Below, in pieces: positions 814-33,481 of a stretch of 64,000 nt of DNA (position 1 is its first letter; every line of letters begins with the position of its first letter). The position numbers and the translations under genes were made by a program. Below the pieces are notes generated by a model. The model was not told the DNA's origin. It did not search any database and saw only the letters and a list, made by a program, of their open reading frames with translations. The DNA is taken from the NCBI RefSeq assembly GCF_964036635.1, contig NZ_OZ038524.1:2175001-2239000 (forward strand), in the 5' to 3' direction. This stretch comes from Tenacibaculum dicentrarchi (GTDB lineage: Bacteria > Bacteroidota > Bacteroidia > Flavobacteriales > Flavobacteriaceae).

Positions 814-884
814 TTCACAAAAATAATCATAAAAAAAAACGTAGAAATTAAATTCTACGTTTCTTTTAAGTACTTATTAAAATA

Positions 885-972
885 TTTTGAAGCTATTTCC
901 CGCTTTCCGCACTCGCTTTTTTTGTTTGAAAAAAACAAAAAAGAGCTCAAACAATTGCTTCAATCGGGGCTA
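885..972. repeat. Dispersed 88-bp palindromic intergenic repeat, copy 1
   Basis: This stretch lies between recQ and trpA and reappears in inverted orientation at about 33395-33481. The two copies share the blocks TAGCCCCGATTGAAGC, TGTTTGAGCTCTTTTTT, GCGAGTGCGGAAAGCGGGAAA and GCTTCAAAA. The ends carry the inverted pair TTGAAGC/GCTTCAA, and the A/T-rich centre can fold on itself. It looks like a REP/MITE-type element. The remainder of the 813-1028 gap shows no gene. Confidence 0.7.
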
Positions 973-1027
973 AACATTTTTACTATATTATTTACAACTA
1001 TTAAAACAGATTGCATCTTTATAAAAA

Positions 1028-1795
1028 TTAAGAATTGATAACAGTACTAACAAAATTAGAAATACCTGCTACGCCATTTTTATCTAAATCTTTAATAAAA
1101 GCCGAACCAATAATTGCACCATCGGCATAATTACAAGCTGTTGTAAATGTTTTGTTGTCTGATATACCAAAACCAACCACTAATTTACTTTTTAAATTCA
1201 TTGCCTCAATTCGTTTAAAGTAATCAATTTGCTCTGTTGATATTTCTCCTTTTGCTCCTGTAATAGATGCCGAAGCAACTACATAAATAAAAGCATCTGT
1301 AAGTGCATCAATTTTTCGAATACGTTCTTCTGATGTATGAGGCGTAATTAAAAATACGTTAGTAATTCCGTATTTTTCGAATAACGCTTTATAATGATTT
1401 TCATATTCAATCATTGGCAAATCAGGAAAAATAACAGTTTTCATACCGCAATCTTTTACTGCTTGACAAAACTTATCCTCACCATATTTAATAAGCTGAT
1501 TCAAATATCCCATTAAAACTAATGGTGTTTTATTAGTGTCTTTTACTGATTTTAGTTGCTCAAAAACAACATCTAAATTCATTCCATTTTGCAAAGCTCT
1601 ATGACTACTATCTTGTATAGTAGTTCCATCTGCTAAAGGGTCAGAATAAGGTAAACCAACTTCAATAAAATCAACACCATTTTCACTTAAATCGTGTATA
1701 ATTTTAGTTGTATCATTTAAATTTGGAAAACCTGCTGTAAAAAATATAGAAAGTAAATTCTTCTTTTCTTGAAATATTTCTTTTAATAATTTCAT
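1028..1795 (-). CDS. trpA: Tryptophan synthase alpha chain
   Basis: At 255 aa it has the usual TrpA length. It cleaves indole-3-glycerol phosphate to indole and glyceraldehyde 3-phosphate and passes indole to TrpB. The signature FIEVGLPYSDPLADG holds the two catalytic acids, Glu45 and Asp56, corresponding to Glu49 and Asp60 of the Salmonella enzyme. The phosphate-binding loops follow (VVGFGIS and AIIGSAFIK). It is the last gene of the trp operon and starts 7 nt after the trpB stop. Confidence 0.97.
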   Translation of the reverse strand: MKLLKEIFQEKKNLLSIFFTAGFPNLNDTTKIIHDLSENGVDFIEVGLPYSDPLADGTTIQDSSHRALQNGMNLDVVFEQLKSVKDTNKTPLVLMGYLNQLIKYGEDKFCQAVKDCGMKTVIFPDLPMIEYENHYKALFEKYGITNVFLITPHTSEERIRKIDALTDAFIYVVASASITGAKGEISTEQIDYFKRIEAMNLKSKLVVGFGISDNKTFTTACNYADGAIIGSAFIKDLDKNGVAGISNFVSTVINS

Positions 1796-1802
1796 CTACT
1801 TA

Positions 1803-3002
1803 TTATTTTAAATGCTTCATATACGTTTCTAAATCTTTATCGCCTCTTCCTGATAAATTCACTATAATTACTTGATCTTTTTTAAATTTTATTTTAGATA
1901 AAACTGCCAATGCGTGTGAACTTTCTAAAGCAGGAATAATTCCTTCTAATTTGGTTAATTCAAAAGCAGCTTCTAAAGCTTCATTATCTGTTGCGTTTAA
2001 AAACTGTGCACGCTTAGTTTCGTGTAAAAATGCATGTAAAGGACCAACTCCTGGATAATCTAATCCTGCAGAAATAGAATATGGCTCTGTAATTTGTCCG
2101 TATTCATCTTGCATTAAAATAGTTTTACTTCCGTGAATTACACCAACTTGCCCTAATTGAGATGTTGCTGCACTTTCACCAGAATCAACTCCTAAACCAC
2201 CAGCTTCAACAGCTATTAAACCAACTTCTTCATCTTCTAAGTAATGATAAAAAGCACCAGCCGCATTAGAACCTCCACCAACACAAGCAATAACTGTATC
2301 AGGGTTTTCTTTTCCTGTTTTTTCTTTTAGTTGCCATTTCATTTCTTCTGAAATAATAGCTTGTAAACGTGCTACCATATCAGGATACGGAGCAGGACCA
2401 ACAACAGAACCAATTAAATAATAACTATCTGGATGCTGAATCCAATAACGAATTGCTTCGTTTGTAGCATCTTTTAAGGTTTTACTTCCACTTAATGCAG
2501 GCACAACTGTTGCTCCTAACATTTTCATTCGAGCAACATTAGGCGCTTGCCTTGCAATGTCTTTTTCTCCCATAAAAACGATACACTCTAAACCCATTAA
2601 AGCACAAACTGTAGCCGTTGCAACACCATGTTGTCCTGCACCTGTTTCTGCTATAATTTTTGTTTTACCTAGCTTTTTTGCTATTAAAATCTGTCCAACA
2701 GTATTGTTTACTTTGTGTGCTCCTGTATGATTTAAATCTTCACGTTTTAAATAAATAGTAGCACCATATTTCTCTGATAATCTTTCTGCCAAATACAACG
2801 GAGTAGGACGTCCAACATAATCTTTTAATAAAGCTTTATATTCGTCTTGAAACTCTTTAGATTCGATAATTTTAATATAATTATCTTCTAATTCTAGTAC
2901 GTTTGGATGTAATAATTCAGGAATAAATGCACCACCGAATTGCCCGTAATATCCTTCTTTAGTTGGTTGAAATTTCATATTATAATTTTTAGTATTCTTC
3001 AC
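1803..3002 (-). CDS. trpB: Tryptophan synthase beta chain
   Basis: This 399-aa PLP enzyme condenses indole with serine in the alpha2-beta2 complex. The PLP lysine is Lys97 in HTGAHKVNN, the phosphate-binding motif is [10 protein letters not shown], and the C-terminal [10 protein letters not shown] is typical of TrpB. The ATG at 3002 lies 5 nt after the trpF stop. An alternative start at Met9 (2978) fits the family N-terminus about equally well. It sits between trpF and trpA in the operon. Confidence 0.97.
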
Positions 3003-3007
3003 GAATT

Positions 3008-3670
3008 TTAAAAAACATGAAGCTCTTTTTTAAACTTTTCTATCTTTTTCACTGATTTTAAACCAGCTTCTATTTCGAATTTACTATTTACATCTAAAGC
3101 ATAAATAGGTAAATTCAAGGCTTTTAATTTATTGATTTCTGCTACTTCTTCTAACCCAATTCCTCCACTTAAAAAAAATGGTTTCGTTAAATTATATTTC
3201 TGAAGAACAGCCCAATCAAAAGTAATTCCGTTTCCTCCTCGCTCTTTTCCTTTAGTATCGAACAAAAAGAAATCAACTAATGATTCGTAGGGTTTTAAAA
3301 CTTCAAAATCGAAACTATCTTTAATTCCAAAAACTTTTACAATTTCGGGCATTTTATATTTTAAATGCGGCTTTTTATCAGCAATACTTTCTTCAAAAAT
3401 AGTTCTTAAACGCTGTAGATACTCTGGAGATTCATCGCCATGTAATTGCAGCATATTTAAACCATATTCTTCGGTTAATGAAACTACAATTTCAGGGATT
3501 TCATTCACAAAAACACCTGCTTTTTTTATCTCCTTAGGTAAATCGGGAATAATTCCCTCAAAATTTCTTTTTGATTTTTCATAGAAAATAAATCCTAAAT
3601 AATCAGGTTGCAATTGGGCAACTTGTTGGATATTTTCTACATATTTCATTCCACAAACTTTCAGTTTCAT
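3008..3670 (-). CDS. trpF: Phosphoribosylanthranilate isomerase
   Basis: This 220-aa TIM-barrel enzyme carries out the Amadori rearrangement of phosphoribosylanthranilate to CdRP. The N-terminal KVCGMKY carries the catalytic Cys, and [18 protein letters not shown] carries the catalytic Asp and the phosphate-binding region. [11 protein letters not shown] and LDVNSKFE complete the signature. Its start is 2 nt from the trpC stop, so translation is probably coupled. It is a separate gene rather than a fusion with trpC as in enterobacteria. Confidence 0.95.
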
Positions 3671-3672
3671 AT

Positions 3673-4461
3673 TTATCTTATTTGAGCGATAAAATCTTTA
3701 CAAGCTTCTCCAGGATTTTTTGTTTTCATAAAATTTTCTCCTATTAAAAACCCTTGAAAACCATGTTCTTTTAATCCTGTAATAATTCTTGGGTCTGAAA
3801 TTCCACTTTCTGAAACCTTAATTGCGGTATCAGGAATTTGCCCTGCCAAGTTGATAGAATGTTCTAAATCAACTTCAAAAGTTTTTAAATTTCTATTATT
3901 AATTCCGATAATTTTATTATCTAAATCACTAATTTTATCTAAATCCTCTTGTGTGTGTATTTCGTATAAAACTTCTAAACCTAAATCGTTAGCTAATTGT
4001 CCGTAATTTTTAAGTTCTTGTTTTGTTAAACAAGCAGCTATTAATAATATAACGTCTGCTCCTATTGCTTTTGCTTCAACAATTTGAAAACCATCAACAA
4101 TAAAATCTTTTCTTAAAATTGGTATTTGCTGATTTACAGTTCTAGCCTCTAACAAATCGGCCATAGTTCCACCAAAAAAATTCGTATCAGTTAAAATAGA
4201 TTGTGCTGCTACATTCGCATCTAAATAACCTTCTGTTACTTCTAATATTGATGATGTATCGTTAATAATTCCTTTTGATGGAGATTTACGTTTATACTCT
4301 GCAATAATACCTGTTGAACCTACGGTTAATAATGACTTTTTTAATGAAAAAGGAGCATTTTTAAAGTTAGGACTTTCCACTAATTTACTAACAGGAACTT
4401 CTGCTTTAATTTTAGCAACTTCTGTTTTTTTAAAGGCTATTATTTTATCTAATATTGTCAT
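3673..4461 (-). CDS. trpC: Indole-3-glycerol phosphate synthase
   Basis: This 262-aa TIM-barrel enzyme closes the indole ring on CdRP. Family motifs include AEYKRKSPSKG, ILRKDFIVDGFQI with the catalytic Lys, IGINNRNLKTFEVD, KVSESGI and FLIGENFMK. It lies between the frameshifted small gene and trpF and is read in the same direction as the other trp genes. Confidence 0.96.
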   Translation of the reverse strand: MTILDKIIAFKKTEVAKIKAEVPVSKLVESPNFKNAPFSLKKSLLTVGSTGIIAEYKRKSPSKGIINDTSSILEVTEGYLDANVAAQSILTDTNFFGGTMADLLEARTVNQQIPILRKDFIVDGFQIVEAKAIGADVILLIAACLTKQELKNYGQLANDLGLEVLYEIHTQEDLDKISDLDNKIIGINNRNLKTFEVDLEHSINLAGQIPDTAIKVSESGISDPRIITGLKEHGFQGFLIGENFMKTKNPGEACKDFIAQIR

Positions 4462-4490
4462 ATAAATAATTATGAATTCAAAATTATGAA

Positions 4491-4851
4491 TTACGATTTA
4501 GTGTTTCTAATGGTTTTTTGAATACTTCCGATAATCTTTAATATTTCTTCAATATCCTTTAATAATGATTCTGATTCTTTATCAGATAAAAAATCAGTAT
4601 CTTTTAATAAACGAATCCAATAATGAGATTCTCTTGCTTCTTTATAAGCTATTGTTAATTTAGCAAAAAAATCTTTTCTGCTTTGACCTCCAATTGCTTC
4701 TTCTACATTCGCTCCTATTGAAGTTCCTGAACGTAATAATTGTTTACTTAATACAAATTCTTTCTTTTCTTGAGATAAATGCTTATATAAATTTGACCAT
4801 CCTCACAGCAAAATTATAGCTCTTTGTTTGAATTACATTATCTTTTTTCAT
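4491..4851 (-). pseudogene. Frameshifted four-helix-bundle protein (23S rRNA IVS / Avd-like family)
   Basis: Two minus-strand frames together encode one small helical protein. From ATG 4849-4851 the first frame reads MKKDNVIQTKSYNFAVRMVKF and then stops. The rest, LYKHLSQEKKEFVLSKQ to RNTKS, continues in the next frame and ends at 4491. The span is 361 nt, and one extra T around 4786-4793 (TTT for TT) accounts for the shift. The motif LLRSGTSIGANVEEA is characteristic of the four-helix-bundle S23/IVS family. It sits inside the trp operon between trpD and trpC and has no known role in tryptophan synthesis. A sequencing error is possible. Confidence 0.75.
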
Positions 4852-4877
4852 CACAAGAAATTTATAATTCGTAATTG

Positions 4878-5867
4878 CTAATTCGTAATTAACTTTTTTA
4901 AACATTCTTTTGCTTTCAATCCTAATAAAGAATCTTTTGCTTCTTGATATGCTTGTTCAAAACTCTTTTGATTATCAACAATTTTTAAAGCAAATGCAGC
5001 ATTTGTAAGCACAACACTGTTTTGTGCTTCTGTACCATTTCCTTCAATAATATTTTTGAATATTTTAGCTGCATCAGCAACGGATTTACCGCCAAAAATA
5101 GCTGATTGTTGTACTCTTTTTTGCCCTAAATCTTCTGGATTAATTAATTGTTCGCCGTTTTTAGTGAATAACTTAAATCCGCTTGTTAATGAAATTTCAT
5201 CATAACCATCAAGCGCATGTACAATTCCGTAATTAGTACCTTCTTCTTGCAAAATATAATTATACAAACGAGCAACTTCTAAATTAAACGTTCCTAATAA
5301 TTGATTTTTAGGTGAACTCGGATTTACCAAAGGACCCAACATATTAAAAAACGTTTTTAACGCTAATTCTTTTCTTGTTGCGCTTACCGCTTTCATTGCT
5401 GGATGAAATTTTGGTGCGTGTAAAAAACAAATATTTGCTTTTTCTAAGTGCGATTTTAAAATAGCTTCATCATTTGTAAATTGATATCCGAAACTTTCTA
5501 ACATATCAGAAGAACCTGATTGAGAAGATACGGAATAATTTCCATGTTTTGCTACTTTTTGTCCTGTTCCTGCAACAATAAAAGAGGTTAATGTTGAAAT
5601 ATTGAACGTATCTTTTCCATCGCCACCAGTTCCTACAATATCGATAGTATTATATTCTGATAAATCAACTTTTATAGCCAACTCTATTAAAGCATTTCTA
5701 AAACCCGCAAGCTCATCAACAGAAATTGGACGCATCATAAAAACAGTCATAAAAGACGCTAAATGTGCTTCATTAAATTTTCCTGAGGCAATATCAATTA
5801 AAACCTGTTTTGCTTCAAGTTTTGTTAATCTTTTATGTTGATATAAATTATTTAAAATTTCTTTCAT
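4878..5867 (-). CDS. trpD: Anthranilate phosphoribosyltransferase
   Basis: This 329-aa enzyme transfers the phosphoribosyl group of PRPP to anthranilate. The PRPP-binding glycine-rich loop DIVGTGGDGKDTFNIST is at about residues 79-95. KHGNYSVSSQSGSSDMLE and the NMLGPLVNP motif are also intact. It begins 13 nt after the trpG stop. The usual KHGNR/GN-SSx-GSAD motif has small substitutions here, but the catalytic core appears complete. Confidence 0.96.
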   Translation of the reverse strand: MKEILNNLYQHKRLTKLEAKQVLIDIASGKFNEAHLASFMTVFMMRPISVDELAGFRNALIELAIKVDLSEYNTIDIVGTGGDGKDTFNISTLTSFIVAGTGQKVAKHGNYSVSSQSGSSDMLESFGYQFTNDEAILKSHLEKANICFLHAPKFHPAMKAVSATRKELALKTFFNMLGPLVNPSSPKNQLLGTFNLEVARLYNYILQEEGTNYGIVHALDGYDEISLTSGFKLFTKNGEQLINPEDLGQKRVQQSAIFGGKSVADAAKIFKNIIEGNGTEAQNSVVLTNAAFALKIVDNQKSFEQAYQEAKDSLLGLKAKECLKKLITN

Positions 5868-5880
5868 GTTCTAAAAGATT

Positions 5881-6459
5881 TTATTTTTTAACGTTATTTA
5901 AAAAATTTCTAACAAGTTGTTCACCTACATCTGTTAATATTGATTCTGGGTGAAATTGAACTGCCGATAAATTAAATTCTTTATGCTGAATTGCTTGGAT
6001 TCCTCCTTGCTCGTCTTTTGCAGTAATTATTAATTCTGATGGAAAATTATTGTGAGATGCTATCCATGAATGATATCTTGCTGCTTTAAATTTAGTTGAA
6101 ACATCTTTAAATATTACAGCATCTTTTTTGATGATTTCCATTTCAGTAGCAACACCATGAAATACTTCTCCCATGTTTTCGATTGCTCCACCAAAAACTT
6201 CGGTAATTGCTTGTAAACCTAAACAAACACCAAAAATAGGTTTTTTACCTGCGTATTGTTTTATAACATCTTTTAAAATACCTGCTTCATCAGGAATTCC
6301 TGGGCCTGGTGATAAAATAATAACGTCATACCTATCAATCTCTGTAACAGAAATTTCATCGTTTCTATATACGTCTGGCAAATTACCTGTAATATCTTCT
6401 ACCATGTGTACCAAATTATAGGTAAACGAATCGTAATTATCTAGTATTAATATTTTCAT
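5881..6459 (-). CDS. trpG: Anthranilate synthase component II (glutamine amidotransferase)
   Basis: This 192-aa class I glutamine amidotransferase supplies ammonia to TrpE. The nucleophile is Cys79 in GVCLGLQAI, and the His-Glu pair is in VQFHPESI near the C-terminus. The oxyanion region SPGPGIPDEAG is present. The sequence could also serve PabA, but its place directly after trpE supports TrpG. A palindromic repeat separates it from trpE. Confidence 0.95.
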   Translation of the reverse strand: MKILILDNYDSFTYNLVHMVEDITGNLPDVYRNDEISVTEIDRYDVIILSPGPGIPDEAGILKDVIKQYAGKKPIFGVCLGLQAITEVFGGAIENMGEVFHGVATEMEIIKKDAVIFKDVSTKFKAARYHSWIASHNNFPSELIITAKDEQGGIQAIQHKEFNLSAVQFHPESILTDVGEQLVRNFLNNVKK

Positions 6460-6570
6460 TTTTTTCTAATTGTAATTGCCTAATAAATGTTGTTATTTAT
6501 AAGTCAATTTGTTTGTTTATTTTTTAAGATATTAATGAATAATCTAAATAATATCTTAAAACTCAATTTT

Positions 6571-6646
6571 GCGTTAGGGATTGAAACGGCATCCTTTTTA
6601 TTTTTTTTCTAAATAAAAAGATATAGTGGAAAGCCCGCCCGAACGC
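6571..6646. repeat. REP-like palindromic element between trpE and trpG
   Basis: Imperfect inverted arms GCGTTAGGG (6571-6579) and CCCGAACGC (6638-6646) enclose an A/T-rich centre containing ATCCTTTTT and AAAAAGAT. It abuts the trpE stop codon. Elements of this appearance are common between genes in flavobacteria (from memory, not searched). In the trp transcript it could act as a stem-loop affecting the trpE:trpG ratio. Confidence 0.5.
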
Positions 6647-6647
6647 C

Positions 6648-8039
6648 CTAAATATTTTCTGCCAAAATTAACGCTTTTTTCAGAGCTGCTAATTTATTAT
6701 TCACCTCTTGTAACTCTTTTTCTTCATCAGAATGAATTACAATTCCTGCTCCTGCCTGATAATATAACACATTGTTTTTACTAACAAACGAGCGAATGGC
6801 AATGGCTAAATTTACAGAACCGTCTAAACCAATAATTCCGACTGCACCTCCGTAAAAACCTCTCGATTGATTTTCGTAGGTGTCAATTAATTGCATTGCC
6901 TTGTATTTTGGCGCACCACTCAAAGTTCCTGCAGGGAAAGTATCTCCAACTATTTCAATCGGATTTCCTTTTATTTTTCCTTGCACAGTCGATACCAAGT
7001 GAATTACGTGACTAAAATATTGAACTTCTTTAAATACCTCAACATTTACCTTTTCGGCATGTTTACTTAAATCGTTTCGAGCTAAATCAACTAGCATTAC
7101 GTGTTCGGCAGTTTCTTTTTTATCTTCGGATAATTTTTTACCAAGCTTTATATCTTCCGCCATATCGCCAGTTCTTCTGAAAGTTCCTGCAATTGGATTT
7201 ATAGTTGCTTTTCCTTCGTTAATTTTAATTTGTGCTTCTGGTGAAGAACCCATTAATTTAAACGAACCGTAATCGAAATAAAATAAATAAGGTGATGGAT
7301 TTATTGAACGTAATGCTCTGTATACATTAAATTCATCTCCTTTAAATTTTTGTTGAAATTGACGAGATAATACTAATTGAAAAACATCTCCTCTTTTACA
7401 GTGCGATTTTGCTTTTACAACATATTCTTTAAAATCTTCATTGGTACAATTTGAAGTTTCTTCTCCATCGATTTCAAATTTTTGAGTATTGAAAGCTTGT
7501 GCTTCAATGATGGTTTCTACTTCTGAAATTCTTGATTCAGTTCCTGCTTCTACATTTTCAATAATGGTCATTTCATCATTAAAATGATTGATGGCTATTA
7601 TAAATCTGTAAAAACTATACTGCATTAAAGGTATTTTAGACGGAGCGTCTTTTACATTTAATTGTATATTTTCAAAATACTGAACACTATCGTATGTTGA
7701 GTAACCGTACAATCCATTAAATGATTTTAAGGCAGGATCACAATCTAAATCCACCGATTTTGAAAAACTATCAAATAAGGTATAAAAATTCTTATCAATA
7801 GTATTTTTTTCAATAATTTTCCCTTGTTTAGAAACAACAAAATCATGATTTTCTACTTTCATTGTTACCACAGGCTCAATAGCTATAAAAGAAAAACTTT
7901 CTTCTTTACTATGGTAATCTGAACTCTCTAACAATAAGGTATTAGCATATTTATCTCTAAATCGTAAATACAAACCTACTGGAGTAATTGTATCTGCAAT
8001 TCGTTTTTTACTAACTGTTTTAAATGCTATTTTATTCAT
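6648..8039 (-). CDS. trpE: Anthranilate synthase component I
   Basis: This chorismate-using enzyme makes anthranilate, the first committed step to tryptophan. With the ATG at 8037-8039 it is 463 aa. An upstream TTG at 8060 would add seven residues but lies in the attenuator U-tract, so it was rejected. The C-terminal chorismate-binding domain shows NPSPYLFYF, GTFRRTG, LVDLARND, TFPAGTLSGAPK and GGAVG. The N-terminal LLESSD motif is the usual site of Trp feedback inhibition. First gene of the operon, about 25 nt after the attenuator stem. Confidence 0.96.
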   Translation of the reverse strand: MNKIAFKTVSKKRIADTITPVGLYLRFRDKYANTLLLESSDYHSKEESFSFIAIEPVVTMKVENHDFVVSKQGKIIEKNTIDKNFYTLFDSFSKSVDLDCDPALKSFNGLYGYSTYDSVQYFENIQLNVKDAPSKIPLMQYSFYRFIIAINHFNDEMTIIENVEAGTESRISEVETIIEAQAFNTQKFEIDGEETSNCTNEDFKEYVVKAKSHCKRGDVFQLVLSRQFQQKFKGDEFNVYRALRSINPSPYLFYFDYGSFKLMGSSPEAQIKINEGKATINPIAGTFRRTGDMAEDIKLGKKLSEDKKETAEHVMLVDLARNDLSKHAEKVNVEVFKEVQYFSHVIHLVSTVQGKIKGNPIEIVGDTFPAGTLSGAPKYKAMQLIDTYENQSRGFYGGAVGIIGLDGSVNLAIAIRSFVSKNNVLYYQAGAGIVIHSDEEKELQEVNNKLAALKKALILAENI

Positions 8040-8063
8040 TTTATTTATTATTAAAAACAAAAA

Positions 8064-8085
8064 AGGCCTATCGTGAGATAAGCCT
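8064..8085 (-). terminator. trp attenuator terminator hairpin
   Basis: On the transcribed (minus) strand AGGCTTATC pairs with GATAGGCCT around the loop TCAC, a 9-bp stem with one G-U, preceded by AAAA and followed by TTTTTT. It lies between the leader peptide stop (8124) and the trpE start (8039). An alternative pairing of GTGAGA (just after the leader stop) with TCTCAC of this stem would act as antiterminator. A third pairing, CTC-T-CTTA with TAAG-T-GAG across the leader stop, would block the antiterminator. Confidence 0.85.
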
Positions 8086-8123
8086 TTTCTTTATATAATA
8101 TATACATACAGGTTTCTTCTCAC

Positions 8124-8171
8124 TTATTTTCTAAGAGAGTTCCACCACCATATGTTGTTTTGTTTCATCAT
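8124..8171 (-). CDS. trpL: trp operon leader peptide
   Basis: A 15-codon minus-strand ORF, MMKQNNIWWWNSLRK, ends at TAA 8124-8126 and carries three adjacent Trp codons (8142-8150). It sits directly upstream of the attenuator hairpin and trpE. Ribosome stalling at the Trp codons when charged tRNA-Trp is scarce would favour the antiterminator and allow transcription into trpE. Start may be either of two adjacent ATGs (8171 or 8168). No Shine-Dalgarno is visible, and the -7 promoter box is only 7 nt upstream. Confidence 0.88.
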   Translation of the reverse strand: MMKQNNIWWWNSLRK

Positions 8172-8178
8172 TATGAGA

Positions 8179-8186
8179 CAAATATA
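8179..8186 (-). promoter_or_regulatory. Candidate trp operon promoter (-7 box)
   Basis: The minus strand reads TATATTTG, an exact match to the Bacteroidota -7 consensus TAnnTTTG. No TTG is found 19 bp upstream. A start site 4-8 nt downstream would fall at or within a few bases of the leader peptide ATG, implying a nearly leaderless trpL. Confidence 0.55.
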
Positions 8187-8410
8187 AGAAAGTTATTTTA
8201 ATAATTTATTTTCTTCTTTTAAATTTTAAGTAATTTATTATCAAACAACATTAGAACTACTTAAAAGCAAGCTTTAAAATTTCATTTAACAACAAAAAAC
8301 ATATTTAAAGTTAAAGTATGTAACCATATTATACATTGTAGTTTATAAAAACAAACATATATCTAATATTTGCAACGTAATTAGAACAAGAAAATTAAAA
8401 ATATAAAATT

Positions 8411-10075
8411 ATGTGTGGAATTGTATGTGCGTTTGATTTAAAGCAACCTTCGGATAGTTTAAGACCTCAAGTTTTAGAAATGGCTAAAAAAATCAGACAT
8501 CGTGGACCCGATTGGAGCGGAATTTATAGCGATGATAAAGTAATTATGGCACACGAAAGATTGGCAATTGTAGATCCTGCTTCAGGACAACAGCCTTTAT
8601 TTAGTGCCGATAAAAAACTAATTTTAGCAGCAAACGGCGAAATATACAACCACAGAGAATTAGCTAAAAACCTTACAAACCCTTATGAATTTCAAACAGC
8701 TTCTGACTGTGAAGTAATTTTAGCACTTTACAAAGAAAAAGGTGTTGATTTTGTAGATGATTTAAACGGAATTTTTGGTTTCGCTTTATATGATGCTGAA
8801 AAAGATGAGTACTTTGTTGCTCGTGACCACATGGGAATTATTCCTTTATATATTGGTTGGGACCAAAACGGAACTTTTTATGTTGCTTCGGAATTAAAAG
8901 CCTTAGAAGGTGTTTGTGCGAAAATCGAATTATTTCCTCCAGGACATTATATGTCTAGTAAAGATGGAAAATTCGTACAATGGTACAAAAGAGATTGGAG
9001 AGATTACGATGCTGTAAAAGATAACGAAACAAGTATTGCAGAAGTTAAAGAAGCTTTAGAAGCGGCTGTACACAGACAATTAATGAGTGATGTTCCTTAC
9101 GGTGTGTTACTTTCTGGAGGATTAGATTCTTCAGTAATATCGGCAATTGCAAAGAAATATTCCCAAAAAAGAATTGAATCTGATGATACATCAACTGCTT
9201 GGTATCCGCAATTACATTCTTTTTCTGTAGGATTAGAAGGTTCGCCTGATTTAGCTGCAGCTCAAAAAGTTGCAGATCATATTGGAACTGTTCATCATGA
9301 AATAAAATTCACTATTCAAGAAGGTTTAGATGCTATTAAAGATGTTATCTACAACATAGAAACATACGATATTACAACAATCCGTTCTTCTACTCCAATG
9401 TATTTAATGGCACGTGTTATTAAATCAATGGGTGTTAAAATGGTATTATCTGGTGAAGGTGCTGATGAAATTTTTGGAGGATATTTATATTTCCATAAAG
9501 CTCCAAACGCAAAAGAATTCCATGAAGAAACTGTTCGTAAATTAGACAAACTACATATGTATGATTGTTTAAGAGCCAACAAAAGTTTAATGGCTTGGGG
9601 AATTGAAGGTCGTGTACCATTTTTAGACAAAGAGTTTATGGATGTTGCAATGCGTATCAATCCACAGGATAAAATGATTAACGGTGAACGCATGGAAAAA
9701 TGGGTTATCCGTAAAGCTTTTGAAGATATGTTACCTGAAAGTGTTGCTTGGAGACAAAAAGAACAATTTTCTGATGGTGTAGGTTATAGTTGGATTGATA
9801 CTTTAAAAGAAGTTGTTGATAAAGAAGTTACCGATGAACAATTAGCAAACGCTAAATTCAGATTCCCAATTCAAACTCCAACGAACAAAGAAGAGTTTTA
9901 CTATAGAACTATTTTTGAAGACCACTTCCCTAGCGATACCGCTGCTTTAAGTGTTCCTCAAGAAGCAAGTGTAGCTTGTAGTACCGCTATTGCTTTAGAA
10001 TGGGATGAAGCATTTAAAAATATGAACGAACCATCTGGTAGAGCAATTATGAGTGTTCATGATGATGCTTATTAA
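8411..10075 (+). CDS. asnB: Asparagine synthase (glutamine-hydrolysing)
   Basis: This 554-aa enzyme makes asparagine from aspartate, glutamine and ATP. The class II amidotransferase nucleophile is Cys2 (MCGIVCAFD), with RHRGPDWSG and ANGEIYNH following. The synthetase domain has the PPi loop LLSGGLDSSV near residue 235 and LSGEGADEIFGGY near 345. Length matches E. coli AsnB. It is transcribed divergently from the trp operon and closed by a strong hairpin at 10119-10148. Confidence 0.96.
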   Translation: MCGIVCAFDLKQPSDSLRPQVLEMAKKIRHRGPDWSGIYSDDKVIMAHERLAIVDPASGQQPLFSADKKLILAANGEIYNHRELAKNLTNPYEFQTASDCEVILALYKEKGVDFVDDLNGIFGFALYDAEKDEYFVARDHMGIIPLYIGWDQNGTFYVASELKALEGVCAKIELFPPGHYMSSKDGKFVQWYKRDWRDYDAVKDNETSIAEVKEALEAAVHRQLMSDVPYGVLLSGGLDSSVISAIAKKYSQKRIESDDTSTAWYPQLHSFSVGLEGSPDLAAAQKVADHIGTVHHEIKFTIQEGLDAIKDVIYNIETYDITTIRSSTPMYLMARVIKSMGVKMVLSGEGADEIFGGYLYFHKAPNAKEFHEETVRKLDKLHMYDCLRANKSLMAWGIEGRVPFLDKEFMDVAMRINPQDKMINGERMEKWVIRKAFEDMLPESVAWRQKEQFSDGVGYSWIDTLKEVVDKEVTDEQLANAKFRFPIQTPTNKEEFYYRTIFEDHFPSDTAALSVPQEASVACSTAIALEWDEAFKNMNEPSGRAIMSVHDDAY

Positions 10076-10118
10076 ACTTAATATTAAGTATCAAAATAAA
10101 TTATAATCCCCCATTAAA

Positions 10119-10148
10119 AAGCGTAAGTTTATCTACAAACTTACGCTT
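10119..10148 (+). terminator. Terminator after asnB
   Basis: AAGCGTAAGTTT and AAACTTACGCTT form a perfect 12-bp stem with loop ATCTAC, flanked by AAAA and a short T-rich tail. It is 43 nt after the asnB stop. Confidence 0.85.
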
Positions 10149-10296
10149 CTTTCATTAAAAAACACTACTAAAAAAATAAATAAAACACAACATAGCAACA
10201 CTTTAAGTTATTTTTAATTTTATATATATATTAGCAGGAGTAAAAAGCGGTAACCGAAAAGCTTATTAAAAATAGAGTAGGTAAAAAAAAAATATT

Positions 10297-10461
10297 ATGC
10301 AAAAATTAAATTTAGAAAAATTTACAGACAACAAGTTAGAAAACTTAAACGCTATAAGCGGTGGTGGTGTTCAATGTGAGAAAACAACCTATACCAATGA
10401 AAGCGCTGGCTGTAGTGGAAAGGACATACGAAGTTGTGATGGAACATATACAGAGTATTAA
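10297..10461 (+). CDS. RiPP precursor peptide with GG leader (grasp-with-spasm/rSAM-modified type)
   Basis: A 54-aa ORF begins MQKLNLEKFTDNKLENLNAI and continues SGGG, followed by a short Cys/Ser/Thr-rich core, VQCEKTTYTNESAGCSGKD and then IRSCDGTYTEY. The amphipathic leader ending in a double-glycine cleavage site is typical of Bacteroidota natural product precursors. The core has three Cys and several Thr, Ser, Asp and Glu residues that could be cyclised. An ATP-grasp maturase domain lies two genes downstream. No export or radical SAM gene remains nearby. The exact family is inferred from pattern only. Confidence 0.75.
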   Translation: MQKLNLEKFTDNKLENLNAISGGGVQCEKTTYTNESAGCSGKDIRSCDGTYTEY

Positions 10462-10480
10462 ATCTTAATCATAGTATTTA

Positions 10481-10511
10481 GAAGAAGGCTAATTAGCCTT
10501 CTTCTTTTTTT
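10481..10511 (+). terminator. Hairpin after the precursor gene
   Basis: GAAGAAGGCTAATTAGCCTTCTTC is a 24-nt uninterrupted palindrome (10481-10504; centre TAATTA) followed by T-rich sequence. It can end the abundant precursor transcript while letting a fraction read into the downstream genes, a usual arrangement in RiPP loci. Confidence 0.75.
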
Positions 10512-10524
10512 TAAAAATAAAGAA

Positions 10525-11106
10525 ATGAATAAAGTAATTGGTATTATAATTTTATTTTGCTGTTTAAGTAGTTGTTCAAAAGATAAAAAAAATAAACTAT
10601 GTGTTGACTTAAAAGAAATGCAATATAAAGATCAGCTGTTAAGGGGGGTAATGACAGACAATCCTTATATAGAAATATTAGATTCTATTTTAAAAACGAA
10701 AAATTACACTCATAAAGATTATAAAACACTTCCTTCCGAAGAAAGAAAAAAATATAGTTTAAAGACTATTGAAATAATGAAGTTAAGACCACCTCTTACT
10801 GTTAAAGAAAAAATCAAGAATGATTCTTTAATGCAAGAGCAAATTAAATTAGACAATATTAATACTCCATTACTTATTAGTCTTATTAAAAAAAGAGGGT
10901 ATCCTAACAAAGATAATTGTAATTGTGAATTAATTAAAAATCAAATGGGTGACCTTTTTCCTGCTACTATTTTTAGACATTCACAACCACAATATTGGGA
11001 TGAAATTAGAACGCTTGTTAACATAGAGAAAAAGAAAAATAGACTAAGTAATAATGCCTATAAATTTGTTATCACTCATATAAATGGTCGTAATAACAAT
11101 AATTAA
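10525..11106 (+). CDS. Putative lipoprotein of the RiPP locus
   Basis: This 193-aa protein starts with MNKVIGIIILFCCLSSCSKDK, a lipoprotein signal peptide with lipobox LSSC and Cys17 as the acylation site. The body is charged, and the C-terminal part (LISLIKKRGYPNKDN through FRHSQPQYWDEI) resembles small DUF6624-like domains that carry a GYP and an H-S motif. That resemblance is from memory and weak. Its stop codon overlaps the next ATG by one base (11106), indicating a coupled operon with the ATP-grasp gene. No function is claimed. Confidence 0.65.
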   Translation: MNKVIGIIILFCCLSSCSKDKKNKLCVDLKEMQYKDQLLRGVMTDNPYIEILDSILKTKNYTHKDYKTLPSEERKKYSLKTIEIMKLRPPLTVKEKIKNDSLMQEQIKLDNINTPLLISLIKKRGYPNKDNCNCELIKNQMGDLFPATIFRHSQPQYWDEIRTLVNIEKKKNRLSNNAYKFVITHINGRNNNN

Positions 11107-13643
11107 TGGTTTTACTAATAAGTGAAGAAAAAGACCTAACAACTAATTATGTTATTGATTGGCTACATAGTTATTCTTTTTATAATTTCAAAATATTTAA
11201 TTCTAATAAATTCAATATAATAAATAGTTTTGAAATAGGTAATAGTACAAATATCTCTTTTGATGATGTAAATTCATTAGATATAAAAAAAGTTTGGCAT
11301 AGAAGAGCAAAAATAAATTTCAGATTTACTACAACATATAACAATTTAGATGAAAAGTTGAAAATAGATGAACAAGTTTTACTTTATTTTTTTGAAAACT
11401 TTTTAAATACCCAAGTTGAATATATTGGGTCTTATAAAAAAGAAGTTGAAAACAATAAACTAGATGTTTTAGTTAAGGCCAAAAAAAATGGATTGAACAT
11501 TCCAAATACACTCATTACTTCTAGTAAAAAAAAATTACAAGAATTTTATTGCAAATCTAAAAAAATAATAACTAAAGATTTATATCATCCAGTATGGTTT
11601 AAAATTGAAAATACCCAATACAGTTCTGTTGGTACAATTTTAATTACACAAAAAATGATAAATCAATGTAGTGATTTTTTTATACCTATGTTTTTACAAG
11701 AAATGATTGAGAAAAAATATGAAATACGGGTTTTTATGTATAAAAAAACACTGTATCCTATGGCAATATTTTCTCAAAATGATAAACAAACAAAGGTCGA
11801 TTATAGAAACTACAACAATACAAAACCTAATAGGAATGTGCCAATAGAAATCACAAAAGAATTAGAAAACAAGATTTTTTGTTTAACAAAAGATTTGAAT
11901 TTAAATACTTGTTCAATAGATTTTATTGTTACAAAAAGCAATGAATATGTTTTTTTGGAAGTAAACCCTTGGGAACGCTTGCGTTTATTACGAAAAGCGA
12001 TGCCCAATATATTATTGCAAATGTTAATTAGAGGTTCAAATGGCGTAGGTTACACAGCATATTCTGATAATTTAATTGAACGATTTGTAGCAGAATCATG
12101 GGAAAATGGTGTCGATATTTTTAGAATTTTTGACTCCTTAAACTGGATGAAATCAATTGCCCCTTGTATTGAGCACGTTCGCACAAAAACAAATGGTTTA
12201 GCCGAAGGATCAATTTGTTATACTGGCGATATTCTAAACCCTGAAAACACCAAATACAACCTTAAATACTATACGCAATTAGCCAAAGATATTGAAAATG
12301 CTGGAGCGCACATTCTTGCCATTAAAGACATGGCTGGTTTGCTAAAACCGTATGCCGCTTTCGAATTAGTTTCGGCATTAAAACAAAAAATTAACATTCC
12401 AATTCATTTACATACCCACGATACTTCTTCCATTCAATCGGCTACTTATTTGAAAGCTATTGAGGCTGGCGTTGATGTGGTTGATGTAGCGCTTGGTGGT
12501 TTATCGGGCTTAACATCGCAGCCTAATTTCAATTCGATTGTCGAAATGATGAAATTCAACGAGCGTGAAAGTGATTTAAATATTGATTCTTTAAACAAAT
12601 ATTCTAATTATTGGGAAACCGTTAGAGAATATTACTATCCTTTTGAATCTGGTTTAAAAGCAGGTTCTGGAGAGGTTTTTAAACATGAAATTCCTGGGGG
12701 GCAATATTCAAATTTAAAACCACAAGCACAGGCTTTAGGTTTGGAAGATCGTTTTTATGAAATTACCAAAATGTATGGCGATGTAAATCATCTTTTTGGC
12801 GATATCGTAAAAGTTACCCCAAGTTCAAAAGTTGTGGGCGATATGGCACAATATCTAGTAAGTAATAACTTAACGGTACAAGATGTGTTAGAACGTGGCG
12901 ATACTATTTCGTTTCCGCAGTCGGTAGTGAGTTTTTTTAGAGGAGATTTAGGGCAGCCTGTTGGCGGATTTCCAAAAGAGCTTCAAAAACTTATTTTAAA
13001 AGATGAAAAACCCTATACCGACAGACCAAACGCACATATTAAAACTTTAGATTTTGATAAAGAATACAAGGATTTTAAGAAAATATTCGAAAAAGATTTA
13101 AGCAGACCTATTGATATTACTGATTTTTTATCCTATAAATTATATCCAAAAGTTTTTACCGATGCTTACAATAAGCGTTTAAAATATGATAGTTTAATCA
13201 ATTTACCAACCAAAAATTTCTTTTATGGAATGGAAATTGACGAAGAAATTAATGTTGAAATAGACAAAGGAAAAACATTGTTAATTACCTTAGATTCTGT
13301 CGGTAAGGCTAACCAAGACGGAATGGTTACTGTTTATTTTAAAGTAAATGGTCAAGGTAGATCGGTTCAAATAAAAGATACTTCTATTAAAATAGATAAA
13401 GTAATTCACGCTAAAGCGGATAAAAATAACAGTAAAGAAATTGGCGCGCCCTTACAAGGAATGCTTTCTACTATTTTAGTGAAAAAAGGAGATAAAATAA
13501 CCAAAAATCAACCCTTATTTATCATTGAAGCCATGAAAATGGAAACCACCATTACGGCTACCGAAAATACAAGTATCGATGAAATTATTCTAAAAGCAGG
13601 AAACATGGTATATGCTGATGATTTAATTATTAAATTAAAATAA
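11106..13643 (+). CDS. Chimera: RiPP ATP-grasp maturase fused to C-terminal pyruvate carboxylase
   Basis: One 845-codon frame joins two unrelated proteins. Residues 1 to about 288 match ATP-grasp peptide maturases of the GwsG/MvdD type: N-terminal TTNYVIDWL, VWHRRAKINFRF and the Mg-binding end CSIDFIVTKSNEYVFLEVNP. From about residue 288 (nt 11964-11972) it reads PWERLRLLRKAMPNILLQML, which is pyruvate carboxylase, and continues to its end. The HLHTHD metal ligands, IKDMAGLLKP lysine and biotinyl site EAMKMETT are present. The whole biotin carboxylase half and the first carboxyltransferase strand (RDAHQS-type metal ligand) are missing, as is the maturase C-terminus. Neither activity of pyruvate carboxylase should be complete. 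The ATP-grasp catalytic core could still fold. A deletion or a misassembly is the likeliest origin. Confidence 0.85.
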   Translation: MVLLISEEKDLTTNYVIDWLHSYSFYNFKIFNSNKFNIINSFEIGNSTNISFDDVNSLDIKKVWHRRAKINFRFTTTYNNLDEKLKIDEQVLLYFFENFLNTQVEYIGSYKKEVENNKLDVLVKAKKNGLNIPNTLITSSKKKLQEFYCKSKKIITKDLYHPVWFKIENTQYSSVGTILITQKMINQCSDFFIPMFLQEMIEKKYEIRVFMYKKTLYPMAIFSQNDKQTKVDYRNYNNTKPNRNVPIEITKELENKIFCLTKDLNLNTCSIDFIVTKSNEYVFLEVNPWERLRLLRKAMPNILLQMLIRGSNGVGYTAYSDNLIERFVAESWENGVDIFRIFDSLNWMKSIAPCIEHVRTKTNGLAEGSICYTGDILNPENTKYNLKYYTQLAKDIENAGAHILAIKDMAGLLKPYAAFELVSALKQKINIPIHLHTHDTSSIQSATYLKAIEAGVDVVDVALGGLSGLTSQPNFNSIVEMMKFNERESDLNIDSLNKYSNYWETVREYYYPFESGLKAGSGEVFKHEIPGGQYSNLKPQAQALGLEDRFYEITKMYGDVNHLFGDIVKVTPSSKVVGDMAQYLVSNNLTVQDVLERGDTISFPQSVVSFFRGDLGQPVGGFPKELQKLILKDEKPYTDRPNAHIKTLDFDKEYKDFKKIFEKDLSRPIDITDFLSYKLYPKVFTDAYNKRLKYDSLINLPTKNFFYGMEIDEEINVEIDKGKTLLITLDSVGKANQDGMVTVYFKVNGQGRSVQIKDTSIKIDKVIHAKADKNNSKEIGAPLQGMLSTILVKKGDKITKNQPLFIIEAMKMETTITATENTSIDEIILKAGNMVYADDLIIKLK

Positions 13644-13662
13644 ATAAGATATTTTAACAACT

Positions 13663-13688
13663 AAAAATGGCGCTTTTGCGCCATTTTT
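13663..13688 (+). terminator. Terminator after the chimeric gene
   Basis: AAAAATGGCGC and GCGCCATTTTT form an 11-bp stem around TTTT, 20 nt after the stop codon. The poly-T is part of the right arm. Confidence 0.85.
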
Positions 13689-13820
13689 ATATTAATTTAT
13701 TTTATACGCTTTTGAAAAACAACAAACACCCCTTCTAAGTCTTTTTAAGCCGTTTTAAAGCATTATAATAAAAAATACAAATTACTTTAAATGAACATAT
13801 CAATCGCTAAAAAGCTTTTA

Positions 13821-13948
13821 AATCAGCTTGGTTTTTCGTATTTTTGTATACTAGGTTTTATAGATAGATTCAACTTTATATTTTATAAAACAAGCTGATT
13901 TTTTTATCCGAAGAAAAATATTTTAATATTTATTTTCGGATAAAAAAA
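13821..13948 (+). promoter_or_regulatory. gyrB promoter and structured leader
   Basis: A -7 box TATTTTTG lies at 13839-13846. AATCAGCTTG (13821-13830) is repeated inverted as CAAGCTGATT (13891-13900), bracketing the promoter. A second inverted repeat, TTTTTTATCCGAA (about 13900-13912) and TTCGGATAAAAAA (13935-13947), lies in the about 140-nt 5' leader, 45 nt before gyrB. The rest of the 13644-13993 gap holds only the upstream terminator. The inverted pairs could be involved in supercoiling-responsive control, which is inference. Confidence 0.45.
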
Positions 13949-13981
13949 GGAAGAAACAAAACTTAATTAACTCTTTTTTAG

Positions 13982-15931
<1,950 letters not shown>

Positions 15932-15969
15932 TAATATTTAATATTACATGAAAATTTATAAATAAAAAC

Positions 15970-16005
15970 AAACCCTATTGAAAACTTCAATAGGGTTTTG
16001 TTTTT
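15970..16005 (+). terminator. Terminator after gyrB
   Basis: AAACCCTATTGAA pairs perfectly with TTCAATAGGGTTT around AAC, followed by TGTTTTTATTT. It is about 40 nt after the gyrB stop. Confidence 0.85.
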
Positions 16006-16024
16006 ATTTCGGTGTTCAAATCGT

Positions 16025-16032
16025 TATTTTTG
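16025..16032 (+). promoter_or_regulatory. Candidate mdh promoter (-7 box)
   Basis: TATTTTTG matches TAnnTTTG and lies 39 nt before the mdh ATG. The nearest upstream TTG (15998-16000) is 24 bp away rather than the preferred 19, and lies in the gyrB terminator. Confidence 0.45.
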
Positions 16033-16070
16033 TACAACTAAATTAATCATCACAATTAAAATATAAAAAT

Positions 16071-16997
16071 ATGAAAGTAACAGTTGTAGGAGCAGGTGCT
16101 GTAGGTGCAAGTTGTGCAGAGTACATTGCAATTAAAAATTTCGCATCAGAAGTTGTACTAGTTGATATTAAAGAGGGTTTTGCGGAAGGTAAAGCCATGG
16201 ATTTAATGCAAACAGCCTCTTTAAATGGTTTTGATACTAAAATTACTGGTACCACTGGTGATTATAGTAAAACTGCGGGTTCTGATGTTTGTGTGATTAC
16301 CTCTGGTATTGCTCGTAAACCAGGAATGTCTCGTGATGAATTATTAGGAATTAATGCTGGTATCGTAAAAATGGTAGCCTCTAGTTTAGTTGAGCAATCA
16401 CCAAACACGATTATTATTGTAGTATCTAACCCAATGGATACTATGACTTATTTAGTACACAAAGCTACTGGTTTACCTAAAAATAGAATTATCGGAATGG
16501 GTGGAGCGTTAGATTCTGCACGTTTTAAATACCGTTTAGCAGAAGCTTTAGGTGCGCCTATTTCTGATGTTGATGGAATGGTTATTGGTGGTCATTCTGA
16601 TAAAGGAATGCTTCCTTTAACACGTTTAGCTACTCGTAATTCTGTGCCTGTTTCTGAGTTTTTATCAGAAGAAAGATTAGAAAAAGTATTGCAAGACACC
16701 AAAGTTGGAGGTGCTACTTTAACTGGTTTATTAGGTACTTCTGCTTGGTATGCACCAGGAGCAGCAGTTTCAGGAATGGTTCAGGCGATTGCTTGTGATA
16801 CTAAAAAAATATTTCCTTGTTCAGCATTATTAGATGGTGAATTTGGTTTATCTGATTTATGTATCGGAGTTCCTGTTGTTTTAGGAAAAGACGGGATTGA
16901 AAAAATCGTTGAAATTAATTTATCTGACGATGAAAAAACAAAATTAGCTTCTTCTGCTGAAGCTGTTAAAAATAATAATGCTGCATTAAACTTATAA
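16071..16997 (+). CDS. mdh: Malate dehydrogenase
   Basis: This 308-aa NAD-dependent enzyme of the LDH-like MDH group interconverts malate and oxaloacetate. The Rossmann loop is VVGAGAVGASCAEY with acidic Asp after beta-2 (VLVDIKEG), indicating NAD rather than NADP. SGIARKPGMSRDELLGIN is the active-site loop with Arg residues, and VIGGHSDKGMLPL holds the catalytic His. Monocistronic, between two terminators. Confidence 0.96.
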   Translation: MKVTVVGAGAVGASCAEYIAIKNFASEVVLVDIKEGFAEGKAMDLMQTASLNGFDTKITGTTGDYSKTAGSDVCVITSGIARKPGMSRDELLGINAGIVKMVASSLVEQSPNTIIIVVSNPMDTMTYLVHKATGLPKNRIIGMGGALDSARFKYRLAEALGAPISDVDGMVIGGHSDKGMLPLTRLATRNSVPVSEFLSEERLEKVLQDTKVGGATLTGLLGTSAWYAPGAAVSGMVQAIACDTKKIFPCSALLDGEFGLSDLCIGVPVVLGKDGIEKIVEINLSDDEKTKLASSAEAVKNNNAALNL

Positions 16998-17016
16998 AAA
17001 AGTTTCTTATGTCGAT

Positions 17017-17050
17017 AAAAAACCCGTATAATTTGAATTATACGGGTTTT
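17017..17050. terminator. Bidirectional terminator between mdh and the ftsE-like gene
   Basis: AAAACCCGTATAATT and AATTATACGGGTTTT form a 15-bp stem with a TTGA-type short loop. A- and T-tracts on both sides suit the convergent genes. Confidence 0.85.
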
Positions 17051-17096
17051 TATTTTTGATACTATTTTAATCTAAAATTACTCGAATTAATAAAGG

Positions 17097-17780
17097 TTAA
17101 ACAGATTGTTGTATTACTTCAAAAAGTTCTCCCCCCTCACATTTTAATGTCTTTTGCTTAAACTTTACTATTAACTGATAATCGTGAGTTGCCATTAAAA
17201 TAGTTTTTCCACTTTTATGAATTTCATTTAACAACTCCATTACTTCTAACGATGTTTTAGGGTCTAAATTTCCTGTTGGTTCATCTGCTAAAATTAATTC
17301 AGGGTCATTTAATAAAGCTCTTGCAATTGCAACTCGTTGTTGCTCTCCTCCTGAAAGTTCAAAGGTGTTTTTATGCTGTTTTTGCTTCATCCCTACTTTA
17401 TCTAAAACCTCATAGATTTTATTTTCTATATCCATTTTATTTTTCCAACCAGTGGCTTTTAGCACAAATTCTAAATTTTTAAAAACATTTCTATCGTTTA
17501 AAAGTTTAAAGTCCTGAAAAACAACACCTAGATTTCGCCTCAAAAAAGGAATATCTTTTTCCTTAATTTTATTTAAATCAAAACCTACTATTTCGCCAAT
17601 ACCTTCTTGTAGTTGCAAATCAGCGTATAAGGTTTTTAACAGGCTACTTTTTCCACTTCCTGTTTTTCCTATCAAATAATAAAAATCTCCTTTATTTAAT
17701 GTGAAATTTACTTTTGATAATACCAAATTTTCTTGCTGATAAATAGCCGCATTTTCAAGATGTAAAACAGGTTTTTCCAT
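17097..17780 (-). CDS. ftsE: FtsE-like ABC transporter ATP-binding protein
   Basis: This 227-aa ABC ATPase has Walker [14 protein letters not shown] near residue 40, Q-loop VFQDFKLL, signature [15 protein letters not shown] and Walker [14 protein letters not shown] followed by the H-loop THD. The pattern [22 protein letters not shown] is strongly FtsE-like. FtsE works with FtsX at the septum to control peptidoglycan hydrolases. No ftsX is adjacent, so the symbol rests on sequence alone. LolD-type exporters are the main alternative. Confidence 0.8.
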
Positions 17781-17835
17781 AATTAATTGATTTTTACAAA
17801 TCTAAAATTTTATTACTTAATTATATAACATTTCT

Positions 17836-17843
17836 TACTTTTG
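17836..17843 (+). promoter_or_regulatory. Candidate promoter of the TPR/outer-membrane pair
   Basis: TACTTTTG matches the TAnnTTTG -7 box, 74 nt before the ATG of the TPR gene, in the gap from the divergent ftsE-like gene. No -33 TTG at the expected distance. Confidence 0.4.
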
Positions 17844-17916
17844 ATGCGTATTTTAACACATCGTTTTCCAACAAAAATAAAAAAAGAACGTTATACTTCT
17901 TAGATACTTGAAAAAT

Positions 17917-33328: not shown

Positions 33329-33394
33329 CTTCCTCGGTAGAGTTTGGTATAATTATAGTTTATTTATGGATTTATCAAAATTAGCACAAATGCC

Positions 33395-33481
33395 TAGCCC
33401 CGATTGAAGCTTTGTTTGAGCTCTTTTTTTGATTTTTCTTCAAAAAAAAGCGAGTGCGGAAAGCGGGAAATTGCTTCAAAA
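33395..33481. repeat. Dispersed palindromic intergenic repeat, copy 2
   Basis: This is the inverted counterpart of 885-972. It starts TAGCCCCGATTGAAGC and ends GCGGGAAATTGCTTCAAA, with the centre diverged by a few bases. It lies 55 bp outside the left end of the tRNA-Arg element. Confidence 0.7.

Follow-up and report, generated by a model that had tools for sequence, protein, structure and literature searches.

How does one uninterrupted gene come to encode most of a peptide-modifying ATP-grasp enzyme followed by the C-terminal part of a pyruvate carboxylase (PC), and could its product do the work of either parent? A locus of Tenacibaculum dicentrarchi raises this question. It lies in a 64,000-nt stretch of contig NZ_OZ038524.1 (positions 2,175,001–2,239,000), the whole of which we call the window, and positions 11106–13643 of the window form a single open frame of 845 codons without interruption. 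Our analysis indicates that a foreign piece of a grasp-with-spasm graspetide operon, cut within its ATP-grasp gene gwsG, stands in place of the 5′ half of the PC gene pyc, and that the resulting fusion is most likely accidental and non-functional.

A single frame made of gwsG and pyc

In NCBIfam searches, residues 2–288 of the fusion matched TIGR04192 (GRASP_w_spasm; 195.3 bits, profile positions 1–295 of 318) and residues 281–844 matched TIGR01235 (pyruv_carbox; 765 bits, profile positions 584–1142 of 1143). Both halves score under their family cut-offs (230 bits, curated, for TIGR04192, which gave 198 bits in the genome search, and 1114 bits for TIGR01235), as for a truncated protein. The switch between parents falls at N287–P288 (nt 11963–11969), and the PC part starts at about residue 592 of PC. 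These results bear out a preliminary description, made from the sequence alone, that had proposed an in-frame fusion switching near residue 288, with loss of the GwsG C-terminus, of the biotin carboxylase and of the start of the carboxyltransferase: the GwsG part ends after EVNP with the following G-Q gone, and the biotin carboxylase domain lies before the first profile position matched in TIGR01235. In related genomes, to whose full parents the join was to be aligned as had also been suggested, the two halves are separate genes.

The window's genome (G000) is a single contig of 2,808,268 bases, 99.91% complete with 0.04% contamination. Across all of it, the fusion protein and TIGR04192 each gave a single match. 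The two partners that the preliminary description had proposed looking for are absent from the search results: there was no match to TIGR04193, the radical-SAM/SPASM partner GwsS, and no complete pyc elsewhere in the genome.

The intact site in relatives and the two joins

We compared the locus with G367, a draft genome of the same species and the only conspecific compared, and with two close species, G018 and G369. In G367, pyc is intact (1149 codons) between asnB and gyrB; G018 has the same asnB–pyc–gyrB order with an intact pyc, and pyc is intact in G369 as well. The window aligns with G367 over 1–10229 and 11951–17857, except for an indel at 6472–6647, and the stretch between these blocks does not align. 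Here, about 1738 nt of foreign DNA stands in place of about 1820 nt of resident sequence (G367, L085 12187–14006), namely the bases just before pyc and the first 589–590 pyc codons. At 24.5%, the GC content of the insert is below that of asnB (34.9%), the pyc remnant (33.4%) and gyrB (34.7%). No gwsG match was found in G367 at E ≤ 1e-10, and pyc directly follows asnB in G367 and G018; together with the low GC content, these comparisons indicate that the gws segment is foreign to the site.

At the right join, AAACCCTTGGGA, starting at 11963, is common to the window and to G367 with its intact pyc, and the N-P codons of the GwsG EVNP motif coincide, in the same phase, with the N-P codons of the PC motif QENP. 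At the homologous spot, AACCC occurs in 19/43 gwsG relatives and AAACCCT in 6/43. The preliminary description had both parents plausibly sharing ACCCT at the join; the identity of window and pyc stands, and microhomology is plausible but unproven. The two joins also bear on whether the fusion is an assembly or contamination artefact, which we consider very improbable. In favour of one, the assembly was judged as finished sequence and the sole conspecific genome compared lacks the fusion. Against it, the locus lies in a single contig of high completeness and low contamination, two joins rather than one enclose a coherent operon fragment, and neither GwsS nor another copy of either fused half or of the missing pyc half was found in the genome. 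On the two joins, the coherent fragment and the lack of second copies, misassembly was rejected as the principal explanation.

The insert as the probable 5′ end of a graspetide operon

In its content, the insert resembles the 5′ part of a grasp-with-spasm graspetide operon: a DUF805b RNA, a precursor-like open reading frame (ORF), a lipoprotein-like ORF and the cut gwsG follow one another on the same strand (Table 1). The RNA lies 13 nt before the precursor ATG. The precursor-like ORF gave weak matches to TIGR04149 (E 0.003, 17.4 bits) and PF14406 (E 0.098, 13.4 bits), both below the cut-off of 25. The lipoprotein-like ORF had no match in Pfam or NCBIfam at E ≤ 0.001, and is 35% identical over 177 amino acids (aa) to L087 12168–12740 and 32% over 190 aa to L088 6889–7485. 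The possibility that 10231–10269 encodes the end of a protein lying upstream in the donor was dropped, as Rfam places the DUF805b RNA there.

The three nearest gws loci, L086, L087 and L088 (the surroundings of L056, L057 and L037, respectively, hence the same places), run in the order RNA, precursors, lipoprotein-like ORF, gwsG, short ORF, gwsS, with gwsS over the TIGR04193 cut-off in 3/3. The window has the same order of RNA leader, candidate precursor, lipoprotein-like ORF and gwsG as these grasp-with-spasm operons of Bacteroidetes (TIGR04192/TIGR04193), and its precursor-like ORF has a double-Gly leader and cysteines. In contrast to L087, it lacks gwsS, the LPL-type ORF, the peptidase/ATP-binding cassette (ABC) exporter and the HlyD-type gene after gwsG. 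In PMC8939145, the ‘Branch 5’ Bacteroidetes loci to which such operons correspond have a SPASM enzyme, nearly all with an LPL protein just before it, and also a ‘cluster 23’ protein, many with a lipoprotein signal. The lipoprotein-like ORF perhaps belongs to the family described there as ‘cluster 23’, an assignment that is ours.

Table 1. Features of the asnB–gyrB region of the window
Feature	Position	Strand	Evidence or remarks
asnB (asparagine synthase B), intact left neighbour	8411..10075	+	NCBIfam; colinear with G367 (L085 10374–12038) and G018 (L032 10139–11803)
Terminator-like hairpin 3′ of asnB	10119..10148	+	12 pairs
Left join: last bases common with the G367 asnB–pyc intergenic region, ~50 bases before the G367 pyc start	10226..10233		Alignment to G367
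DUF805b RNA (RF02914), leader motif of the imported operon	10244..10283	+	Rfam 42.6 bits (gathering 35.6)
Precursor-like ORF, 54 aa, GGG leader boundary then three Cys	10297..10461	+	Weak profile matches
Terminator-like hairpin 3′ of precursor-like ORF	10480..10505	+	11 pairs, T run
Lipoprotein-like ORF, 193 aa	10525..11106	+	Related to lipoprotein-like ORFs of intact gws loci
gwsG-derived part, fusion residues 1–288	11106..11969	+	ATG overlaps the stop of the preceding ORF; TIGR04192 match
Right join: AAACCCT common to window and intact pyc, same reading phase	11963..11969		Alignment to G367
PC-derived part, residues 289–845: most of carboxyltransferase, PYC_OADA and biotinyl domains	11970..13643	+	Pfam/NCBIfam, alignments
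Divergent pyc tract beside the join	11970..12098	+	17 differences from G367 between 11975 and 12098
Terminator-like hairpin 3′ of the fusion gene	13662..13689	+	12 pairs
gyrB (DNA gyrase subunit B), intact right neighbour	13994..15931	+	NCBIfam; colinear with G367 and G018

The DUF805b RNA is not peculiar to this insert. We scanned 40 of 46 gws loci, most with ~1.5 kb of upstream sequence (L050, L052, L054, L055, L081 and L082 were left out), and found it upstream of gwsG on the same strand, 258–1424 nt away, in 16/40, all 16 in this orientation; the loci include close relatives, and L037, L056 and L057 coincide with L088, L086 and L087, respectively. In the three nearest loci it lies at L086 11463–11499, L087 8668–8703 and L088 10952–10986. 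It was found neither in 20 pyc loci (133.7 kb) nor in L085, L032 and L122. It may serve these operons as a leader or a regulator, an association for which we found no published account.

Recombination beside the right join

Past the divergent pyc tract, the window and G367 show zero differences over 12099–12300 and 99.3–100% identity per 300 bases over 12301–14100, which places a recombination boundary at 12098/12099, next to the right join. Over the 147 bases next to the join, identity is 93% with G018 and G369 and 88% with G367; being closer to the other two species, the pyc piece that carries the join differs in ancestry from the remainder of the pyc remnant. Two histories would explain this: the fusion arose on DNA of another lineage and arrived through homologous recombination, or the join is one end of a recombination patch. 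The left flank is also mosaic relative to G367 (87–100% identity per 300 bases), which shows that recombination in this region extends beyond the fusion.

The codon changes say little about selection. Past the mosaic point, the pyc remnant differs from G367 in three codons (2 nonsynonymous, 1 synonymous), too few for a ratio of nonsynonymous to synonymous rates (dN/dS). In the first 150 nt of the remnant, 7 synonymous and 1 nonsynonymous changes fall on the G000 side and 6 synonymous on the G367 side, with 1 further nonsynonymous codon left unassigned; G020 (L035), whose protein lacks the exact search word, is in no count.

Over window 1–17857, identity to L085 swings between 87% and 100% in adjacent 300-base bins, a sign of frequent recombination. 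A stretch of ~176 bases at 6472–6647, carrying a Flavo-1 RNA (RF01705, 6566–6644), is absent from G367 (L085 8586–8600); a Flavo-1 RNA lies between the same genes in G018 (L032 8283–8362), one occurs in G369 at L122 8178–8256, and further copies in the window lie at 892–975 and 33392–33474. About 290 bases at 4583–4873 are present in G367 and missing at the same place in G018. Upstream of gyrB, 13899–13948 form a near-perfect palindrome (24-base arms, 92% complementary, 2-base spacer).

Fate of the ATP-grasp half

The GwsG part lacks its last ~30 residues, being cut after EVNP. All 42 full-length GwsG relatives have G-Q after NPx, and the fusion reads NPWER, with E and R instead; a later Cys, in a CNY-type C-terminal end, is present in 37/42 and lost in the fusion. 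These 42 sequences are not independent, as they include close relatives such as L051/L052, L059/L060 and L063/L064. They come from 46 loci besides that of G000, of which the remote L054 and L055 were not entered, L050 has no ORF and L040 is partial (215 aa). Upstream of the cut, R66, K157, E206, R208, D272, E285 and N287, which we take to have ATP- or metal-related roles, are identical in the fusion (E285 is found in 40/42 relatives, the others in 42/42).

To model the structure we used residues 1–330 of the fusion only, because an alignment of the whole fusion placed the GwsG relatives at 12–19% identity and was discarded. With 27 relatives, AlphaFold gave a mean predicted local distance difference test score (pLDDT) of 79.5; it is 84 at residues 281–290 and then falls to 55, 58, 41 and 32 over the following stretches, a drop that is partly built in since the alignment holds no PC relatives. 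An intact GwsG (L056) modelled with the same sequence set scored 91.2 overall and 89–97 to its end. The N-terminal part of the fusion is also weaker in two stretches within residues 31–50 (59 and 68, compared with 85 and 84 in the control). The best solved matches to the modelled N-terminal part are graspetide macrocyclases, with 5ig9_A at a Foldseek E of 8.7e-21 and a template modelling (TM) score of 0.69. It resembles the MdnB/MdnC-type ATP-grasp macrocyclases (5ig8, 5ig9, 7mgv and 7m4s) by both structure and sequence; those are complete stand-alone enzymes, unlike the fusion. The model and the alignment suggest that the ATP-grasp core can probably still fold, with its closing segment missing.

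Fate of the pyruvate carboxylase half and oxaloacetate supply

The PC part comprises 558 residues, from PWERL to the end, and is 99% identical to G367 and 97% to G018. HMGL-like, PYC_OADA and biotinyl domains are recognisable by Pfam, the last (PF00364) at residues 778–844 with EAMKM at residue 808 (EAMKME retained), and the product may still be biotinylated. The biotin carboxylase domain is gone, since the TIGR01235 match begins at profile position 584, and so is the start of the carboxyltransferase with its TDTTMRDAHQ segment. The join corresponds to P611 of 2qf7_A; the Asp of TTMRD is residue 560, 51 residues earlier, and is lost, and the residues aligned to R632 and K729 are kept. We take D560, R632 and K729 of 2qf7_A to be the active-site residues D549, R621 and K718 of Rhizobium etli PC (an 11-residue offset). 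Relative to the complete PCs of G367, G018 and 2qf7, the fusion keeps the C-terminal part of the carboxyltransferase and the biotinyl domain without the N-terminal half; on this alignment, neither the ATP-dependent half of PC nor one segment of its active site remains.

The search for another copy of the lost pyc 5′ half in G000 found none. The best matches there to the lost PC half are a separate 461-aa frame at 43% identity, which is presumably acetyl-CoA carboxylase-like, and a 967-aa frame with two weak stretches at 22–23%. A search for PEP carboxylase (PF00311) gave no match in G000, and the control search found it in 7/14 genomes; ATP-dependent phosphoenolpyruvate carboxykinase (ATP-PEPCK) is present in 6/6 genomes tested, G000 included. 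With pyc broken and no PEP carboxylase match, oxaloacetate would have to come from PEPCK or another route, and the loss of pyc could be tolerated because such a route can supply it.

Within the genus, pyc is patchy. A match at E ≤ 1e-150 was found in 62/166 genomes (54/128 of those of good quality), and 104/166 gave none. There are 64 such matches. Of these, 58 run the full length with no stop, and six do not: that of G000, split G368 (two rows), G383 with a TAA, and the partial G430 and G410. Only the G000 match, of the 64, begins at residue 587 within a frame that also contains other coding sequence. The breaks in G368 and G383 also affect a patchy gene, but neither joins it to foreign coding sequence: in G368 (G368:C13:1599251–1602699) two overlapping frames divide pyc between them, and in G383 (G383:C2:5632–9078) one in-frame TAA interrupts it. 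Either may be further decay, or a sequencing error.

Origin of the fused allele

The explanation that we favour is that a fragment of a horizontally acquired grasp-with-spasm operon replaced the bases before pyc together with its first ~590 codons, an illegitimate join fusing gwsG, after EVNP, to about codon 592 of pyc. In the simplest order, a complete operon would first have settled between asnB and pyc, and its 3′ end would then have been lost together with the 5′ half of pyc. Homologous recombination would later have reshuffled the allele, or made it, leaving the short divergent pyc tract. The frame would have stayed open by luck, through the AAACCCT common to the window and pyc in the same phase. 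The preliminary description had proposed a microhomology deletion of several kb: its accidental, non-homologous character holds, and the event was instead a net replacement of ~1.82 kb by ~1.74 kb of foreign DNA. A simple deletion joining two genes already at the site does not agree with a foreign gws segment, a second join at 10226–10233, which that description had not mentioned, and a recombination boundary at 12098/12099.

Homology-facilitated illegitimate recombination offers a one-step route, in which linear DNA is anchored by homology on one side and joined through a few bases on the other, and a full gws operon would never have stood beside pyc. We regard this as a possible, if less favoured, course of events. 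The divergent pyc tract to 12098 followed by near-identity to G367 could be the trace of a single patch with an illegitimate end, and the lengths lost and gained are alike (1820 and 1738 nt). However, the route requires a donor molecule with both gws and pyc sequence, and the insert begins close to where a gws operon naturally starts, with the DUF805b RNA and then the precursor, which fits whole-operon insertion followed by loss of the 3′ end. By either route, the fusion would be accidental.

Several observations weigh against an imported operon leaving a dead chimera. The left join has only ~5 shared bases, and no intermediate with a complete gws operon beside pyc was found. The closest gwsG found is only 48% identical (G452, among the 166 genomes of the genus). 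No close gws donor was found among these 166 genomes, a 299-genome family sample and plasmids (18 weak records, all <60% identity), and one further contig scan gave a single locus matching only residues 283–315, mostly the PC part; the contig and plasmid collections may leave out records very near the window's genome. In addition to the built-in part of the pLDDT drop, the fused frame carries no lesion, and 33/36 GwsG columns conserved at ≥85% before the join are kept in the fusion, so that no decay is visible.

These last two points would also suit a working chimera kept for its function, for example as a biotinylated ATP-grasp ligase that oligomerises like PC or as a dominant modulator, as would the recognisable HMGL-like, PYC_OADA and biotinyl domains and a start codon that overlaps the upstream stop. 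We consider this quite improbable. The fusion has lost the G-Q after NPx that all 42 relatives keep, the biotin carboxylase half and the TTMRD carboxyltransferase segment; its genome has no GwsS match; the same fusion was found in no other genome searched; and the three codons that differ past the mosaic point are too few to show constraint. The idea of a novel protein with working biotinyl and ATP-grasp functions, raised in the preliminary description, is not supported given the universally kept residues that are missing, with biotinylation itself being possible. Equally improbable is its fullest form, in which an expressed, biotinylated, two-module chimera is oligomerised through its PC part and its truncated ATP-grasp module still acts, in a reduced or changed way, on the neighbouring precursor or on some other substrate; if true, this would be a newborn enzyme caught while still variable within a species.

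An accidental rather than a conserved origin is in line with the distribution of gwsG. A conserved family of fusions between ATP-grasp maturases and biotin-dependent carboxylases has next to no probability, with nothing beyond this one frame in its favour, and was rejected on frame lengths. There are 28 gwsG matches in 18/166 genus genomes, and 27 of the frames are 312–349 aa, only that of G000 being longer. In the family sample, the 19 other matches have frames ≤354 aa except for a remote one (26% identity, 451-aa frame), and the 18 plasmid records are all under 60% identity. The accidental fusion of an imported gwsG to resident pyc is retained, and its product is most likely inactive both as a peptide ligase and as a PC, given the residues lost and the model of the ATP-grasp half. 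The best reading of the allele is that it amounts to a loss of pyc that is variable within the species.

Implications

This locus provides a clear case of chimeric gene birth, with an empty site in a conspecific genome and both joins resolved to a few bases, and its chimera is open yet almost certainly useless. Annotation pipelines may call the fusion pyruvate carboxylase or GwsG, and would then ascribe to the strain an anaplerotic enzyme or a peptide product, either of which is probably no longer made. For the biology of T. dicentrarchi, the fused allele would represent a pyc loss inside one species, the gene being already patchily distributed across the genus.

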